Positions 3,942 through 20,475 of a stretch of 64,000 nt of DNA are shown piece after piece. Every line of letters starts with the position of its first letter. Within the stretch, counting starts at the first letter, position 1. Below the pieces are notes generated by a model. That model ran no database searches. It was not told where the DNA came from and saw nothing but the letters and a program-made list of their open reading frames with translations. Source of the stretch: Sporomusa termitida (GTDB taxonomy: Bacteria; Bacillota; Negativicutes; Sporomusales; Sporomusaceae); NCBI RefSeq assembly GCF_007641255.1, contig NZ_CP036259.1:1488001-1552000 (forward strand), read 5' to 3'. A program made the position numbers and the translations under genes.

Positions 3942-5561
3942 ATGATTAGTACTAATAAGCTGACGCTGCAATTTGGCAAGCGCATTCTGTTTAAGGATGT
4001 CAATATAAAGTTTACTCCCGGCAATTGCTATGGCCTCATTGGCGCTAACGGCACCGGTAAATCGACTTTTCTCAAGGTATTGTCCGGTGAAATTGAGCCA
4101 ACCGCGGGCGAGATTGCCATTTCCTCAGGGGAACGTTTGGCCGTACTTAAACAAAATCACTATGAATTTGATGAGTTTGAGGTTCTAAAAACAGTTATCA
4201 TGGGCCATGCCCGTCTGTATGCCATTATGGAAGAAAAGGACAGCCTGTATGCCAAACCGGATTTTTCGGATGAGGATGGTATCCGGGTATCGGAACTGGA
4301 GTGCGAGTTTGCTGAATTGAACGGCTGGGATGCGGAAACCGAAGCCGCCAAGCTCTTAAACGGCCTGGGTATTAAGGACGACCTCCATCAGCTAAAAATG
4401 GGGGAAATCAGCGGCAACGAAAAAGTCAGGGTGCTGTTAGCGCAGGCACTGTTTGGCAACCCTGATATTTTACTGCTGGACGAGCCTACAAATCACCTGG
4501 ACATTGATTCCATTTCCTGGCTGGAAGATTTTCTGGCCGATTTTCCGAACATTGTCATCGTCGTATCCCATGACAGGCATTTTTTAAACCAGGTATGCAC
4601 CCATATTGCCGATATTGATTTCCAGAATATTCAGCTCTATGTGGGCAACTATGATTTCTGGCTGGAATCAAGTCAGCTTGCCCTGCAACTGGCCAAGGAA
4701 GCCAATAAGAAAAAAGAAGAAAAGATTAAAGATCTGCAAAACTTTATCCAGCGCTTTAGTGCCAATGCCTCTAAGTCCAAGCAGGCGACTTCCCGCAAAA
4801 AACTGCTGGAAAAAATTACGCTTGACGACATCAGGCCTTCTTCCCGCAAATATCCGTATGTGGCCTTTAAGCCTGACCGCGAGGCAGGGGCTCAGTTGCT
4901 GACTGTCGAAAACATCAGCAAAAAAATCGAAGGTGAGCAGGTCTTAAATGATGTTAGTTTCCTGGTAAATAAAGGCGACAAAATTGCTTTTGTCGGTCCG
5001 GCAGGAGCGGCTAAAACTTTGCTGTTCAAAATTCTAATGGGAGAAGCAGAGGCTGACAGCGGCTCTTTTAAATGGGGTGTAACAACAAGTCAGGCCTACT
5101 TCCCCAAAGATAACTCCCCGTATTTCGACGGTGTTGCCCTGAATCTTGTTGATTGGCTGCGCCAGTTTTCCCGTGACCAGGAAGAATCCTTTATCCGGGG
5201 TTTTTTAGGGAGAATGCTGTTTTCCGGCGAGGAGAGCCAAAAAGAAGCCAGTGTCTTATCCGGTGGGGAGAGAGTCCGGTGCATGTTAGCCAGAATGATG
5301 TTAAGCGGCGCTAATGTGCTGTTGCTTGATGAGCCGACAAATCACCTGGACTTAGAGTCAATTACCTCGTTAAATACTGGACTGACAAACTATGAGGGTA
5401 CACTCTTGTTTGTATCCCATGACCATCAGTTTATTCAAACAATTGCCAATCGTATTATTGAGATTACACCCAATGGTATAGTTGACCGCACCATGACTTA
5501 TGACGAATATCTGGCCAATGCTGATGTCAAAAAACTACTGGCAGCCATGTACGGCAAGTAA
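3942..5561 (+). CDS. ABC-F family ATPase (YkpA/YbiT-like)
   Basis: 539 residues with two ABC ATPase domains joined by a charged linker and no membrane segments, which defines the ABC-F group of ribosome-acting translation factors. Domain 1 has Walker A GANGTGKS near residue 34, a signature written EISGNEK rather than SGGEK, and Walker B LLLDEPTNHLD. The linker at about 250-310 is rich in Lys and Glu, as expected for the arm that reaches toward the peptidyl-transferase centre. Domain 2 has a changed Walker A, GPAGAAKT, where Ala replaces the Gly before Lys, with intact LSGGE signature and LLLDEPTNHLD. The start ATG has AGGAAAGATGG about 15 bases upstream. It is monocistronic, between two terminators. 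Exact cellular role is not known from sequence. Confidence 0.9.
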   Translation: MISTNKLTLQFGKRILFKDVNIKFTPGNCYGLIGANGTGKSTFLKVLSGEIEPTAGEIAISSGERLAVLKQNHYEFDEFEVLKTVIMGHARLYAIMEEKDSLYAKPDFSDEDGIRVSELECEFAELNGWDAETEAAKLLNGLGIKDDLHQLKMGEISGNEKVRVLLAQALFGNPDILLLDEPTNHLDIDSISWLEDFLADFPNIVIVVSHDRHFLNQVCTHIADIDFQNIQLYVGNYDFWLESSQLALQLAKEANKKKEEKIKDLQNFIQRFSANASKSKQATSRKKLLEKITLDDIRPSSRKYPYVAFKPDREAGAQLLTVENISKKIEGEQVLNDVSFLVNKGDKIAFVGPAGAAKTLLFKILMGEAEADSGSFKWGVTTSQAYFPKDNSPYFDGVALNLVDWLRQFSRDQEESFIRGFLGRMLFSGEESQKEASVLSGGERVRCMLARMMLSGANVLLLDEPTNHLDLESITSLNTGLTNYEGTLLFVSHDHQFIQTIANRIIEITPNGIVDRTMTYDEYLANADVKKLLAAMYGK

Positions 5562-5599
5562 CGGAACAGCAGCTTCAAAACCTCAGGCGATGGTGATCT

Positions 5600-5626
5600 G
5601 CCACACCCGGCATGTGGCGGTTTTTC
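5600..5626 (+). terminator. Terminator after the ABC-F gene
   Basis: GCCACA (5600-5605) pairs with TGTGGC (5613-5618), loop CCCGGCA, followed by GG and a T5 run at 5621-5625. Distance to the stop codon is about 40 bases. Confidence 0.75.
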
Positions 5627-5709
5627 AGAGTAAGAAGGTGCTTTTATTACTATTCCCGACAGTCGCATGCCATCGGCAGCAGGGGTAGAAAACGGTGATA
5701 CACTGCTAT

Positions 5710-5787
5710 AAAAAGAGATTGTCATACTATTGCTTGTGATGACGGAGTACAGTAATTATCCAGGCTAAAAGTAAGCAGTCTCTTTTT
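5710..5787 (+). other. Long-range inverted repeat ending in a T-run (possible structured RNA or terminator)
   Basis: AAAAAGAGATTG at 5710-5721 pairs with CAGTCTCTTTTT at 5776-5787; the only mismatch is a G-U pair. The 54 bases between are not coding. The T5 run at the 3' end resembles a terminator with a large apical domain. It lies in the 362-base gap between the ABC-F and GNAT genes, which otherwise holds only the terminator at 5600. Confidence 0.45.
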
Positions 5788-5923
5788 GTACTACCGGTAA
5801 GCTATTTTTTGTTTAAGAAAAAACAGGATTTGAGGATAGATGATAGAATGCTTATCTGTAATAATTATGAAATCTTTAGAGGATACTCTATATAGTTGAA
5901 TAAGCTAATATAGGAGAAAAAAC

Positions 5924-6988
5924 ATGTCTGCTAACACCTTTGAGCATATGACAATTGAAAAGGTACAGCGTCCGGATTTGGCACAATTGGAACAATTATT
6001 TGCCAGTGCTTTTGGCGAGGAGATTGATGCTGAGCAGATTAGGCGCCGCATTCACCGTACCAGGCAGTTTTACTATATTTTGCACCCGTTGAGCAAGTTC
6101 TCAACCTGGGTTAAAAATCATTTTACTATTTATGTTGTAAAAATAGCAGGCCAGGTTATTGGTTTTATTCAGCTGTCCAGCCTTAACCCCACCCAGCTGC
6201 ATGTGGACTATATAGCCTTCAGCAAGCAGTACCGGGGTTTGGGACTGGGGACCTGGGTTTTAACAAAACTGCTGAATGATGTGGCTGATGTTAATGATTA
6301 TGATGTTGTGCTTGAGGTCCGGGTTGATAATCCGGCTTACAGCTTTTACCAGCGGCTGGGGTTTGGACAAGTCACGCAAATACTGCATTATGAAAAACCT
6401 TTGCGTTCAGGCTGCTCTTGGCCGGAGCAACAGACGGAGACTATAAGCGGCTTTCGCGAACTCCGGGGAGGAGACAGGGCCAAACTCTACCGTTTATACC
6501 TGGAATCGGTTCCATTAACGCTGCGGCGGGTGATTAAGCGGACTTATGGTGAATTTAACCCCAGTATGATGGTTAGAGGCCTGGAATGGATTAAAAATAA
6601 TCTGATGCGGAAGCAGCAAAAAGACTATGTCGTGGAGCAGCAGGGTAAAATCGTGGCTTTGCTGACAATAAACAGTTATTTTAAAGCCAACAGCCATATT
6701 TTCAGCCTTATCCTTCATCCGGCGCATGAGCAGCTGCGGCGGGCGATCATCGAGAAAGCCGGCAGTATTCTCATGGCCAATGGTTGCCAGGGGGTTATTA
6801 GTACCACTATCTACAGCGACGATTCTGCTAAACAGATCACATTGGCGGACCTGGGTTTTAAAAATAACTTGGCTTATTATCTGATGTTCCGGCCATCGGC
6901 ACTAAGGCAAAAGGAGCTAAGCCGGGTTTTAATCCCGGCCGGTCAGCCGGTGTTGACCGGCCGGAAACCACTGGGAAACCAAAATTAG
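5924..6988 (+). CDS. GNAT-family N-acetyltransferase, two-domain
   Basis: 354 residues. Residues about 8-160 form a full GNAT fold with the acetyl-CoA pyrophosphate-binding segment YRGLGLGTWVLTKLL near 106 and the typical late segment NPAYSFYQRLGFGQV near 143. The second half (about 180-330) looks like a second, degenerate GNAT unit: VVEQQGKIVALLTINSYF would be its central strands, but the R/Q-x-x-G-x-G loop is not recognisable. The substrate cannot be told. Start ATG 5924 has TAGGAGAAAA 10 bases upstream. The mutM-like gene follows after 14 bases, so the two are probably cotranscribed. Confidence 0.82.
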   Translation: MSANTFEHMTIEKVQRPDLAQLEQLFASAFGEEIDAEQIRRRIHRTRQFYYILHPLSKFSTWVKNHFTIYVVKIAGQVIGFIQLSSLNPTQLHVDYIAFSKQYRGLGLGTWVLTKLLNDVADVNDYDVVLEVRVDNPAYSFYQRLGFGQVTQILHYEKPLRSGCSWPEQQTETISGFRELRGGDRAKLYRLYLESVPLTLRRVIKRTYGEFNPSMMVRGLEWIKNNLMRKQQKDYVVEQQGKIVALLTINSYFKANSHIFSLILHPAHEQLRRAIIEKAGSILMANGCQGVISTTIYSDDSAKQITLADLGFKNNLAYYLMFRPSALRQKELSRVLIPAGQPVLTGRKPLGNQN

Positions 6989-18646: not shown

Positions 18647-19003
18647 TTACAGAGGCATGCAGGGACGATTGGGTTTGCATTTACGGGGCCAGCAAAAGCG
18701 TGGTGAGCATGCATTCGGCTGGCAGGGAGTCGAGGAGGGGCGGCAGCCGATTGGCTGGTTAGGCCGGCAGGGAGACCAGGAAGGGCGGCAGCCGATTGGC
18801 TGGCTGGGCCGGCAGGAAGACGAGGAGGGGCGGCAGCCGATTGGCTGGCTGGGCCGGCAGGGAGACCAGGAGGGGCGGCAGCCTATATTATTTACCCGCT
18901 CATCAAACTCTTCGTCATCAAACTCGTCATCAGTAAAATCATCATTCCACTCTTCGATATTAGGGGCTTCCCATTTAGGTTTTTTGTATTTTTCATCAGA
19001 CAT
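18647..19003 (-). CDS. Candidate RiPP precursor: acidic leader plus four 15-residue Cys repeats
   Basis: 118 residues. Residues 1-40 are a charged, strongly acidic leader without Cys (DDFTDDEFDDEEFDER). From residue 41 come four tandem 15-residue units of the form G-C-R-P-S-x-S-x-C-R-P-x-Q-P-I, followed by a Cys/Pro/Arg-rich tail. All 12 Cys (42, 49, 57, 64, 72, 79, 87, 94, 99, 104, 109, 115) are in the second part, alternating at 7 and 8 residues in the repeats. The ATG overlaps the stop of the radical SAM/SPASM gene (TAATG), and GGAGG for it lies inside that gene, so the two are translationally coupled. By analogy with ranthipeptide and sactipeptide systems I infer a post-translationally modified multi-core peptide. 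I do not recognise the family. Confidence 0.72.
   Translation of the reverse strand: MSDEKYKKPKWEAPNIEEWNDDFTDDEFDDEEFDERVNNIGCRPSWSPCRPSQPIGCRPSSSSCRPSQPIGCRPSWSPCRPNQPIGCRPSSTPCQPNACSPRFCWPRKCKPNRPCMPL
18735..18885 (-). repeat. 45-bp tandem repeat coding for the peptide units
   Basis: The block CGGCAGCCGATTGG recurs at 18741, 18786 and 18831, with a partial copy at 18876, an exact 45-base period (15 codons). There are no spacers, so this is not a CRISPR array. Copies differ by only a few bases, most of which change the residues W/S, P/S and S/N in the peptide. Confidence 0.95.
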
Positions 19004-20241
19004 TAATTATCCTCCTCCCATTTTCCGGTGTAAGGGTTATACAGACAGTCGGCAGGTGCGGCCTGCCACGACTTTTGCGGGTCGGTACCCTGAGCCAGCG
19101 GCCGGCAGTCATAACAGGCATAACGATACTCACAGGCCTTGCATTTATTTACACAATCTTTAGTCGTACACCAGCACTCGGCCAGCAATTGTCCATTAAG
19201 GATGTCAGCCAGTGAACTTTTCAATATATTTCCACAGATTTGATCGCGGGCAAATATGCAAGGGATAACGTCGCCGTTGGCGGTAATAGCAACCCGGCCG
19301 GCCAAGCAGCTGTGAAACTTCCGGGATTTATCAAACGTTTCCGCATCAGTAAAAAACGGCGGTTTAATCATTGGTTTACTGTAGGTAAGCGGCAGCAGGG
19401 CCTGATCATCGCCCCGCCCGGTGGGGCGTACTACATCAGGCGGAGCCGGTTCCAGCCCGAGCCGGGCGTATAAATTCATGATGTTTTCCACTTCATGCTC
19501 ATTGGCTTGCATAATAATTGACGCAATGCGCAGGGGGATATCGTTAGCTAATAGCTTTTTAACAGCGGCCATGGTTTTTTCGAAGCTGCCCTCATGAAGT
19601 GTCACGGTGTCGTGAACCAAAGCATTGTCGGCGTAAATGGTCGTAGCAATGCTGATATTATGCTGTTTAAAAAAATCAATACAGTCGTCATTGACAAGCG
19701 TAGCATTCGTGAAAATTTCAATTAATTCGTAGTTTTCCTGACGGGCTTTAACAATAAGTTCCTGCCAGCGGGGATACAGCAATGGTTCGCCCCCAATAAG
19801 CTGGATACTGTTTGCCCCTTGCCGGCGGGCCTCGCTAATGAGGTCAAGCCAGCGGTTATGCGGCACCAAACCCGCAGGGGTATGGGGGCTGCTTGCCGAG
19901 TAGCAGTGCAGGCAGCGATTGTTGCAGCTGGTAGTAAGTTCCAGCCAAAGAAATTCTAGCTGGGGCTTATAATCTGACAGCGCTCTCTTCTGGTCAGGGG
20001 GGGGATCAGTATAACCGGCTCCTAGCCCGAGCGCTGTCAGTCTATCAAGAAATGACAGATAGAGTTTGTTATCAGATAAAGTAAGGTCCATTATGTCTTC
20101 CAGAGCCGCTTGCCGGCAGGCCTGCAATAAATTTACTGCACCCTGATTAATTGAATATACCCGGCCTGTGGTTAATGCATAAATAGCTCCCCGGGCCTGG
20201 CCTTCTACTAGCACGCAGTCTTTGTTCAGCCGGTAATGCAA
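19003..20241 (-). CDS. Radical SAM/SPASM peptide maturase with N-terminal PqqD-like domain
   Basis: 412 residues. The first 80 residues resemble a PqqD-like peptide-recognition domain (VEGQARGAIYAL...RVYSINQGAVNLL). The radical SAM core has the cluster-binding Cys 106, 110 and 113 in SCNNRCLHCYS, then QLIGGEPLLYP near 147. The C-terminal SPASM domain carries Cys 312, 328, 336, 356, 358, 363, 367, 370, 376, 379 and 399, enough for two auxiliary [4Fe-4S] clusters. Such enzymes form thioether or C-C crosslinks in ribosomal peptides. The start is TTG behind GAAGGAGG on the minus strand. The stop overlaps the peptide ATG by one base. No transporter or protease gene is adjacent. Confidence 0.88.
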   Translation of the reverse strand: MHYRLNKDCVLVEGQARGAIYALTTGRVYSINQGAVNLLQACRQAALEDIMDLTLSDNKLYLSFLDRLTALGLGAGYTDPPPDQKRALSDYKPQLEFLWLELTTSCNNRCLHCYSASSPHTPAGLVPHNRWLDLISEARRQGANSIQLIGGEPLLYPRWQELIVKARQENYELIEIFTNATLVNDDCIDFFKQHNISIATTIYADNALVHDTVTLHEGSFEKTMAAVKKLLANDIPLRIASIIMQANEHEVENIMNLYARLGLEPAPPDVVRPTGRGDDQALLPLTYSKPMIKPPFFTDAETFDKSRKFHSCLAGRVAITANGDVIPCIFARDQICGNILKSSLADILNGQLLAECWCTTKDCVNKCKACEYRYACYDCRPLAQGTDPQKSWQAAPADCLYNPYTGKWEEDN

Positions 20242-20346
20242 CTGGCCAGCCTCCTTCAGGATATTGTTTCGTTGTATATCCCTGATACATAATATGCAGG
20301 CTGTCAGGCAGGTGTTAGCTGAGAATTAATTAGCAAATTTTTCAGG

Positions 20347-20400: not shown

Positions 20401-20475
20401 GCGGAAGTAGCTCAGCGGTAGAGCATCGCCTTGCCAAGGCGAGGGTCGCGAGTTCGAATCTCGTTTTCCGCTCCA
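20401..20475 (+). tRNA. tRNA-Gly (GCC)
   Basis: 75 bases including CCA. Anticodon GCC in GCCTTGCCAAGGC; acceptor GCGGAAG/TTTCCGC with one G-U; T-arm GCGAGTTCGAATCTCGT. Confidence 0.97.

Follow-up and report, generated by a model that had tools for sequence, protein, structure and literature searches.

A radical SAM/SPASM enzyme and C-x-P repeat peptides of Negativicutes: a proposed late-sporulation modification system

The window analysed here, a stretch of 64,000 nucleotides from Sporomusa termitida, carries a gene for a radical SAM/SPASM enzyme and, overlapping it, a gene for a Cys-rich repeat peptide; that the two form a RiPP-type pairing is well supported. We consider it probable that they belong to a late-sporulation system of the mother cell, in which C-x-P proteins are modified by the enzyme and end up in the spore coat or exosporium. 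The sequence-only reading of this DNA had suggested an intracellular, metal-binding or otherwise exported product. The purpose now looks different, and the connection with spore formation, the sigma-K-like promoter and the unlinked substrates all go beyond what had been noted before. We infer sigma-K control, binding of the leader, modification of the Cys residues and location in the spore; thioether chemistry and the identity of the partner residues are guesses.

The enzyme and the repeat peptide beside it

The enzyme gene lies on the minus strand at 19003..20241 of the window (stop included) and encodes 412 residues from a TTG start, with an AAGGAGG ribosome-binding site 8 nt upstream (20250..20256, minus strand). 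Pfam recognizes Radical_SAM (7.2e-19, stretch 101-257) and SPASM (8.5e-8) in the product, which has orthologues across the class. The radical SAM core spans residues 97-260 (19462..19953, minus strand), and the three Cys of its CX3CX2C motif, C106, C110 and C113, are invariant in 53 aligned sequences, paralogues included. The same alignment delimits the SPASM domain, residues 312-408 (19018..19308, minus strand): the last 101 residues hold 11 Cys, and the seven that form the pattern CX10GX4CX38CX2CX5CX2CX19C are invariant throughout the 53. The radical SAM enzyme that had been read from the letters, with Cys 106/110/113 and an 11-Cys SPASM end, is thus real by open reading frame, Pfam and alignment. 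Among the best 25 of 72 NCBIfam matches none reaches its cut-off, the highest being heme b synthase (97.5 bits vs a cut-off of 500), with grasp-with-spasm at 87 vs 175.

The last pair of the SPASM pattern is CX2C rather than CX3C, as in the RumMC sactisynthases, which have the same arrangement of Cys (CX13GX4CX36CX2CX5CX2CX18C; PMC8188230). Seven SPASM Cys are conserved in peptide-modifying SPASM enzymes, and eight only in the anaerobic sulfatase-maturating enzyme, anSME (PMC5491770). With seven, three Cys of the protein would coordinate the Aux I cluster of the window enzyme, which may also have an open site, by analogy with the open Aux I site of CteB (PMC6231123).

A putative RRE/PqqD-like domain is assigned to the N-terminus (residues 1-78; 20008..20241, minus strand). 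The PqqD-like start claimed earlier is weak by sequence, since the Pfam PqqD model matches 4 of the 53 relatives (best E 0.005) and not the window enzyme itself. The predicted structure, however, supports it: the AF2 model places strands within residues 2-31 and three helices within residues 33-70, with pLDDT mostly 84-96, and its best structural relatives over the full length are the RRE-bearing SkfB, CteB and SuiB, with anSME and PqqE also matched. This model was built from 53 sequences, including paralogues (pLDDT 90.6, pTM 0.86); one built from 26 sequences only was poor in the SPASM region (pLDDT 74.8).

The putative substrate, a peptide of 118 residues with 12 Cys, is encoded at 18647..19003 on the minus strand, and its homologues adjoin orthologues of the enzyme. 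Its ATG overlaps the enzyme stop by one base (TAATG), and residues 1-41 are acidic and free of Cys, so that the open reading frame confirms both the overlap and the leader described earlier. Within the leader, residues 9-19 (PKWEAPNIEEW; 18947..18979, minus strand) correspond to a motif conserved over 54 leader stretches. In the core, residues 41-118 (18650..18883, minus strand), all 12 Cys occur as C-x-P, compared to a mean of 2.9 and a maximum of 8 in 20,000 shuffles of the 78-residue core. Much of the core is encoded by 3.7 tandem copies of a 45-bp unit at 18717-18883. Four G-C-R-P units had been described; three are complete (GCRPSWSPCRPSQPI, GCRPSSSSCRPSQPI and GCRPSWSPCRPNQPI), while the fourth, GCRPSSTPCQPN, diverges. 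The repeat family had not been recognised, and the profile searches concur in finding no model that covers the peptides: Pfam has no family matching either the window peptide or a second, unlinked substrate (see below), and none of the substrates tested reaches an NCBIfam cut-off, SCIFF/ranthipeptide precursor models included. One CFPRQ repeat gave an NCBIfam match to 'elgicin' (29.7 bits vs a cut-off of 40), which was rejected because it looks like an effect of composition.

Might the enzyme carry out an anSME-like oxidation, in which the C-x-P Cys become formylglycine and the resulting aldehydes cross-link the coat through amines? The C-x-P unit does recall the sulfatase motif C-x-P-x-R, and anSME is itself a radical SAM/SPASM enzyme and one of the fold matches. 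However, anSME lacks an RRE and works without a leader, and in the repeats Arg usually stands directly after Pro, not two residues on. Considering in addition that the seven-Cys SPASM domain lacks the eighth Cys conserved in anSME (PMC5491770), we regard this scheme as very improbable indeed, and prefer a RiPP-type modification of the Cys residues.

Conservation of the pair and of the C-x-P core

A search for the same gene pair in other genomes, as the sequence-only reading had proposed, finds it conserved across Negativicutes, with orthologue identities of 48-76%. Matches to the enzyme occur in 41 of 60 relatives, from 76% identity within the genus (the value for the nearest named relative, S. 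malonica) down to about 49% in other members of the class. Of the first 30 orthologue loci, 23 have an intact leader-type C-x-P gene directly behind the enzyme gene, and in one locus (L023) a C-x-P gene lies upstream of the enzyme. In S. silvacetica (L011, also L039) and P. fermentans JBW45 (L035, also L051) the frame of the adjacent C-x-P gene is disrupted and the enzyme gene intact, as expected if other substrates are present, or as would result from sequencing error in the repeat. The same tRNA-Gly sequence adjoins many orthologues in several genera (here at 20401-20475), which argues for vertical inheritance rather than a mobile cluster. In a search for orthologues beyond the class, 299 genomes of the phylum yielded one match besides the own genome, a distant homologue, and viral contigs yielded no relative.

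Two elements stay constant in the substrates. Over the 54 leader stretches the consensus is [KR]PKWExPE[IM]x[DE]WDDD, and over 59 leader-type ORFs 655 of 684 Cys lie in C-x-P; the form of the repeat around these Cys varies widely (CYPRQ, CWPRQQ, CNPNCRPR, CSPNT). An extreme variant is seen downstream of one orthologue (L064 8018-8834), where two tandem genes encode CWPWRGGGGG and CWPRRRPPCSP repeats.

The most likely chemistry, which we put forward tentatively and by analogy, is a thioether at Cys, since Cys is the reactive residue that never varies and enzymes that form thioethers are among the nearest folds. A rival scheme invokes other bonds, such as carbon-carbon bonds of the cyclophane type through the aromatic residue or Arg of C-[FYW]-P-R, the Cys being used for disulfides or metal and the role in the spore being the same. 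In the leader-type ORFs the residue between Cys and Pro is indeed often Phe, Tyr or Trp and that after Pro mostly Arg, a pattern reminiscent of the three-residue cyclophane motifs known from other radical SAM RiPPs, and one of the best fold matches, SuiB, forms carbon-carbon links. For the window peptide and for several genera, however, the intervening residue is mainly Arg, Asn or Ser, so there is no conserved aromatic partner, whereas every unit keeps Cys and Pro. We therefore judge carbon-carbon linkage unlikely, if worth keeping in mind, and retain the thioether at Cys as our working choice.

Independent evidence that the enzyme family acts on the C-x-P unit comes from a second enzyme subfamily, about 30-35% identical to the first, whose genes lie next to those of several small C-x-P precursors. 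The precursors of three genomes (L085-L087) have a classic double-glycine leader (NVEKLTDEKLDKVSGGK) and cores such as IGCQPSWSPCEPKGKVGCMPTATPCEP, so that a core almost the same as that of Sporomusa stands behind an unrelated leader. These paralogues, the conserved leader and the SkfB, CteB and SuiB folds together bear out the earlier proposal of a RiPP-type maturase and precursor with the C-x-P repeats as core units. At least one C-x-P precursor lies beside each of the paralogous radical SAM enzymes (L085, L086 and L087, about 4300-6920; L084 713-1289; L088 2134-2310); the L085-L087 precursors have the double-glycine leader LTDEKLDKVSGG, and no transporter is apparent among their listed neighbours.

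Promoter block, unlinked substrates and sporulation

Alignment of upstream regions shows a block, GCATATTATGTA, at 20286..20297 on the minus strand of the window, which is shared with unlinked substrate genes and has a similar counterpart in yabG. It lies mostly 35-55 nt before the orthologue starts, and up to 144 nt in a few. The sigma-K -10 consensus is CATANNNTA, and since the block matches it at 8 of 9 positions we term it a sigma-K-like -10 region. An AC-type -35 element, AACACC, lies at 20311..20316 (minus strand). The block is found by a loose pattern in 41 of 47 distinct regions upstream of enzyme genes, and by a strict pattern in 37 of 47, against 0.075 expected by shuffling; a permissive pattern finds an AC-type -35 element in 36 of those 37. 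Most of the orthologues that diverge furthest are among the ten enzyme genes that lack the strict block.

As a sigma-K control we used yabG, chosen after DpaA (dipicolinate synthase A) gave no match in 41 genomes. In the same genomes yabG is mostly preceded by CATAGTATGTAATA or a near match to it, and by GTGGCA upstream of that, whereas spoIVA, a sigma-E gene in B. subtilis, in many of them has CATATATTTATAAT instead, unlike both the enzyme block and yabG. Sigma-K controls bclA1-3 and a yabG-like gene in C. difficile, where AC marks the -35 element of sigma-K promoters and ATA that of sigma-E promoters, the -10 elements being similar for both (PMC3789822). To judge from these motifs, the promoter appears to fit sigma-K, the late mother-cell factor.

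How specific is the block within the genome? GCATATNATGTA has four occurrences in the whole 5.3 Mb, one being the enzyme promoter and another lying before an unlinked 91-aa protein. CATANTATGTANNA has seven, equal to the reversed control, and most of these matches therefore need not be functional; they include the enzyme gene, yabG and the gene for a collagen-repeat protein beside other collagen-repeat genes. The latter cluster (GATGATG repeats; L201 948-9123, near G000:C1:4498000-4507500) encodes proteins similar to spore surface proteins of the BclA type, and one of its genes has the block. A gene for a DUF3793 protein (L194 1539-2162, near G000:C1:5025122) has a CATACTATGTA block just upstream and is a possible further member of the regulon. 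The yabG loci (L142, L158) encode proteins with Asp-, His- and Cys-rich tails, which we take to resemble SipL/DUF3794 coat proteins.

The unlinked 91-aa protein was found by a motif search alone and had not been sought beforehand. Its gene (G000:C1:4582408-4582680; L107 1139-1411, minus strand) lies 3 Mb from the pair and encodes a leader, KKPYWDPPEIDEWDDEEDEW, and C-x-P-R repeats, behind the same promoter block. Relatives of this second substrate occur in 28 of 46 genomes, several of which have more than one. Of 25 unlinked substrate genes, 21 are preceded by the block, compared to 0.03 expected by shuffling, and their -35 element is typically GTAACA, GTAGCA or CAC; no consistent partner gene was seen among their neighbours. 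The presence of such genes in enzyme-bearing genomes indicates that one enzyme appears to serve several substrates in trans. Homologous peptides conserved without any radical SAM partner, named by the sequence-only reading as evidence that would count against the pairing, have largely been looked for: across the 46 genomes the unlinked peptides always accompany an orthologue, except in G027 (87% complete), the only orthologue-free genome with such a peptide, which has the paralogue.

If substrate genes occur away from the enzyme gene, perhaps the peptide is simply an unmodified or disulfide-linked coat protein rich in Cys, of a kind known in other spore-formers, or else a metal binder, and the enzyme has a different target. 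Against this view stand the adjacency of the two genes in most genera, their co-inheritance, the common promoter block, the shared leader motif, the RRE-like domain and the paralogous enzyme whose neighbouring precursor couples the same core to a RiPP leader. We think it quite unlikely that the peptide escapes the enzyme, and continue to treat the two as maturase and precursor.

The enzyme profile matches 52 of 300 genomes of the class, and 50 of these have true orthologues (G027 and G124 have a distant paralogue only). SpoIVA is found in 51 of the 300, and together with an orthologue in 46; the four orthologue genomes without a SpoIVA match all have YabG, such that a sporulation marker (SpoIVA or YabG) is present in 50 of 50. 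Neither the orthologue nor SpoIVA occurs in 245 of the 300. The orthologue is missing from five SpoIVA-positive genomes (G012, G027, G032, G050 and G089), and the enzyme is thus not needed for sporulation in general. The association partly reflects shared ancestry, yet several families of the class lack both. Many of the 41 genomes without a DpaA match have SpoIVA and YabG, and dipicolinate may be made another way in them.

The neighbours of the pair encode HrpB helicase, a CDP-alcohol phosphatidyltransferase, a DUF2238-like membrane protein, trigger factor, ClpP and ClpX. No transporter, peptidase, export or immunity gene was seen near the pair, and the listed neighbours of the paralogues likewise include no transporter or peptidase; the examined neighbours thus agree with the earlier remark that no transporter lies nearby. 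A mother-cell protein laid onto the forespore would need none, which could explain the absence. Could the product instead be a secreted signalling or antimicrobial RiPP that acts outside the cell, for example in timing sporulation? The nearest folds are sactipeptide and ranthipeptide maturases, and there are precedents in SkfB, which makes the sporulation killing factor (PMC6231123), and in C. beijerinckii, where loss of the ranthipeptide (SCIFF) system lowers sporulation gene expression (PMC8102284). Such a role is nevertheless hard to reconcile with the missing transporter and peptidase, with long substrates of highly variable repeat number encoded at several loci, with a promoter that resembles a late one, with a main family that has no double-glycine site, and with a locus inherited in one place beside tRNA-Gly. 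We accordingly give secretion little credence and return to deposition in the spore.

Proposed mechanism and comparison with known systems

In the mechanism that we propose, a sigma-K-type promoter would drive transcription of the enzyme gene, with the adjacent substrate following through the TAATG overlap, and promoters of the same type would control the substrate genes at other loci. The RRE-like N-terminal domain would bind the substrate leader (PKWExPE[IM]xxWDD), and the C-x-P units would then pass the active site in turn, the radical SAM and SPASM clusters modifying successive Cys. Each Cys sulfur would be joined to a nearby residue, most likely by a thioether bond, and this would yield a rigid protein with many modifications, which would enter the coat or exosporium with no transporter of its own. 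A bolder version, conceivable but somewhat short of an even chance in our estimation, is that of a structural RiPP: one enzyme acting in trans on several C-x-P repeat proteins would generate covalently stapled coat material as part of the spore envelope of sporulating Negativicutes, with a linkage that may lie outside the known RiPP bonds.

Most peptides known to be modified by radical SAM enzymes are secreted small molecules, cofactors or signals. The proposed system, if true, would extend radical SAM peptide chemistry to a cell structure, would give molecular access, for the first time, to the poorly understood spore coat of diderm Negativicutes, and would represent a way to cross-link the coat without oxygen. 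Because its unit is short and repeated many times, the enzyme would also be of interest for peptide stapling.

How does the pair compare with systems already described? The sactipeptide maturases SkfB (PDB 6efn) and RumMC1/2 combine an RRE, which is predicted for the window enzyme, and likewise a radical SAM domain and a SPASM/Twitch domain with a Cys-containing precursor gene nearby, and RumMC shares the CX2CX5CX2C spacing of the window enzyme (PMC8188230). They differ in that identity is about 20%, their products are secreted antimicrobials without C-x-P repeats, and no sigma-K control of unlinked substrates has been reported for them. The SCIFF/ranthipeptide maturase CteB (PDB 5wgg, 5why) has the same predicted domain order and a seven-Cys SPASM domain with an open Aux I site, belongs to a conserved core system of a bacterial class, and gives the best TM-score of the enzyme model (0.58, with 5why_A); identity is about 16%, however, and the SCIFF precursor is short with six Cys, in contrast to the many repeats and several substrates here. 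The TvgA/TvgB system resembles the present one in that a radical SAM enzyme modifies each unit of a repeated core (TVGG), but it converts Val to cyclopropylglycine, involves no Cys, and its cluster has transporters and an oxidase (PMC9062424). The radical SAM/SPASM enzyme anSME (PDB 4k36-4k39) acts on Cys in C-x-P-x-R, yet it has eight SPASM Cys rather than seven, no RRE, and a single site in a large enzyme substrate.

On the side of the spore coat, CotH modifies CotB and CotG in Bacillus. Tgl cross-links the coat protein GerQ (PMC3533761). Their parallel with the role proposed for the window enzyme is that they act in sporulation by cross-linking or modifying proteins of the coat, repetitive ones among them, but they use transglutaminase or kinase chemistry and are unrelated in sequence. 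No radical SAM coat enzyme was found in the literature searched, the open-access papers yielded no account of radical SAM RiPPs from Sporomusa, Pelosinus or the Negativicutes, and the enzyme-peptide system is apparently undescribed. A radical SAM system with a repeated core and the cross-linking of a spore coat are each known; joining them would be new, and there is a fair chance that a structural role would raise the novelty of the system beyond the known kinds.
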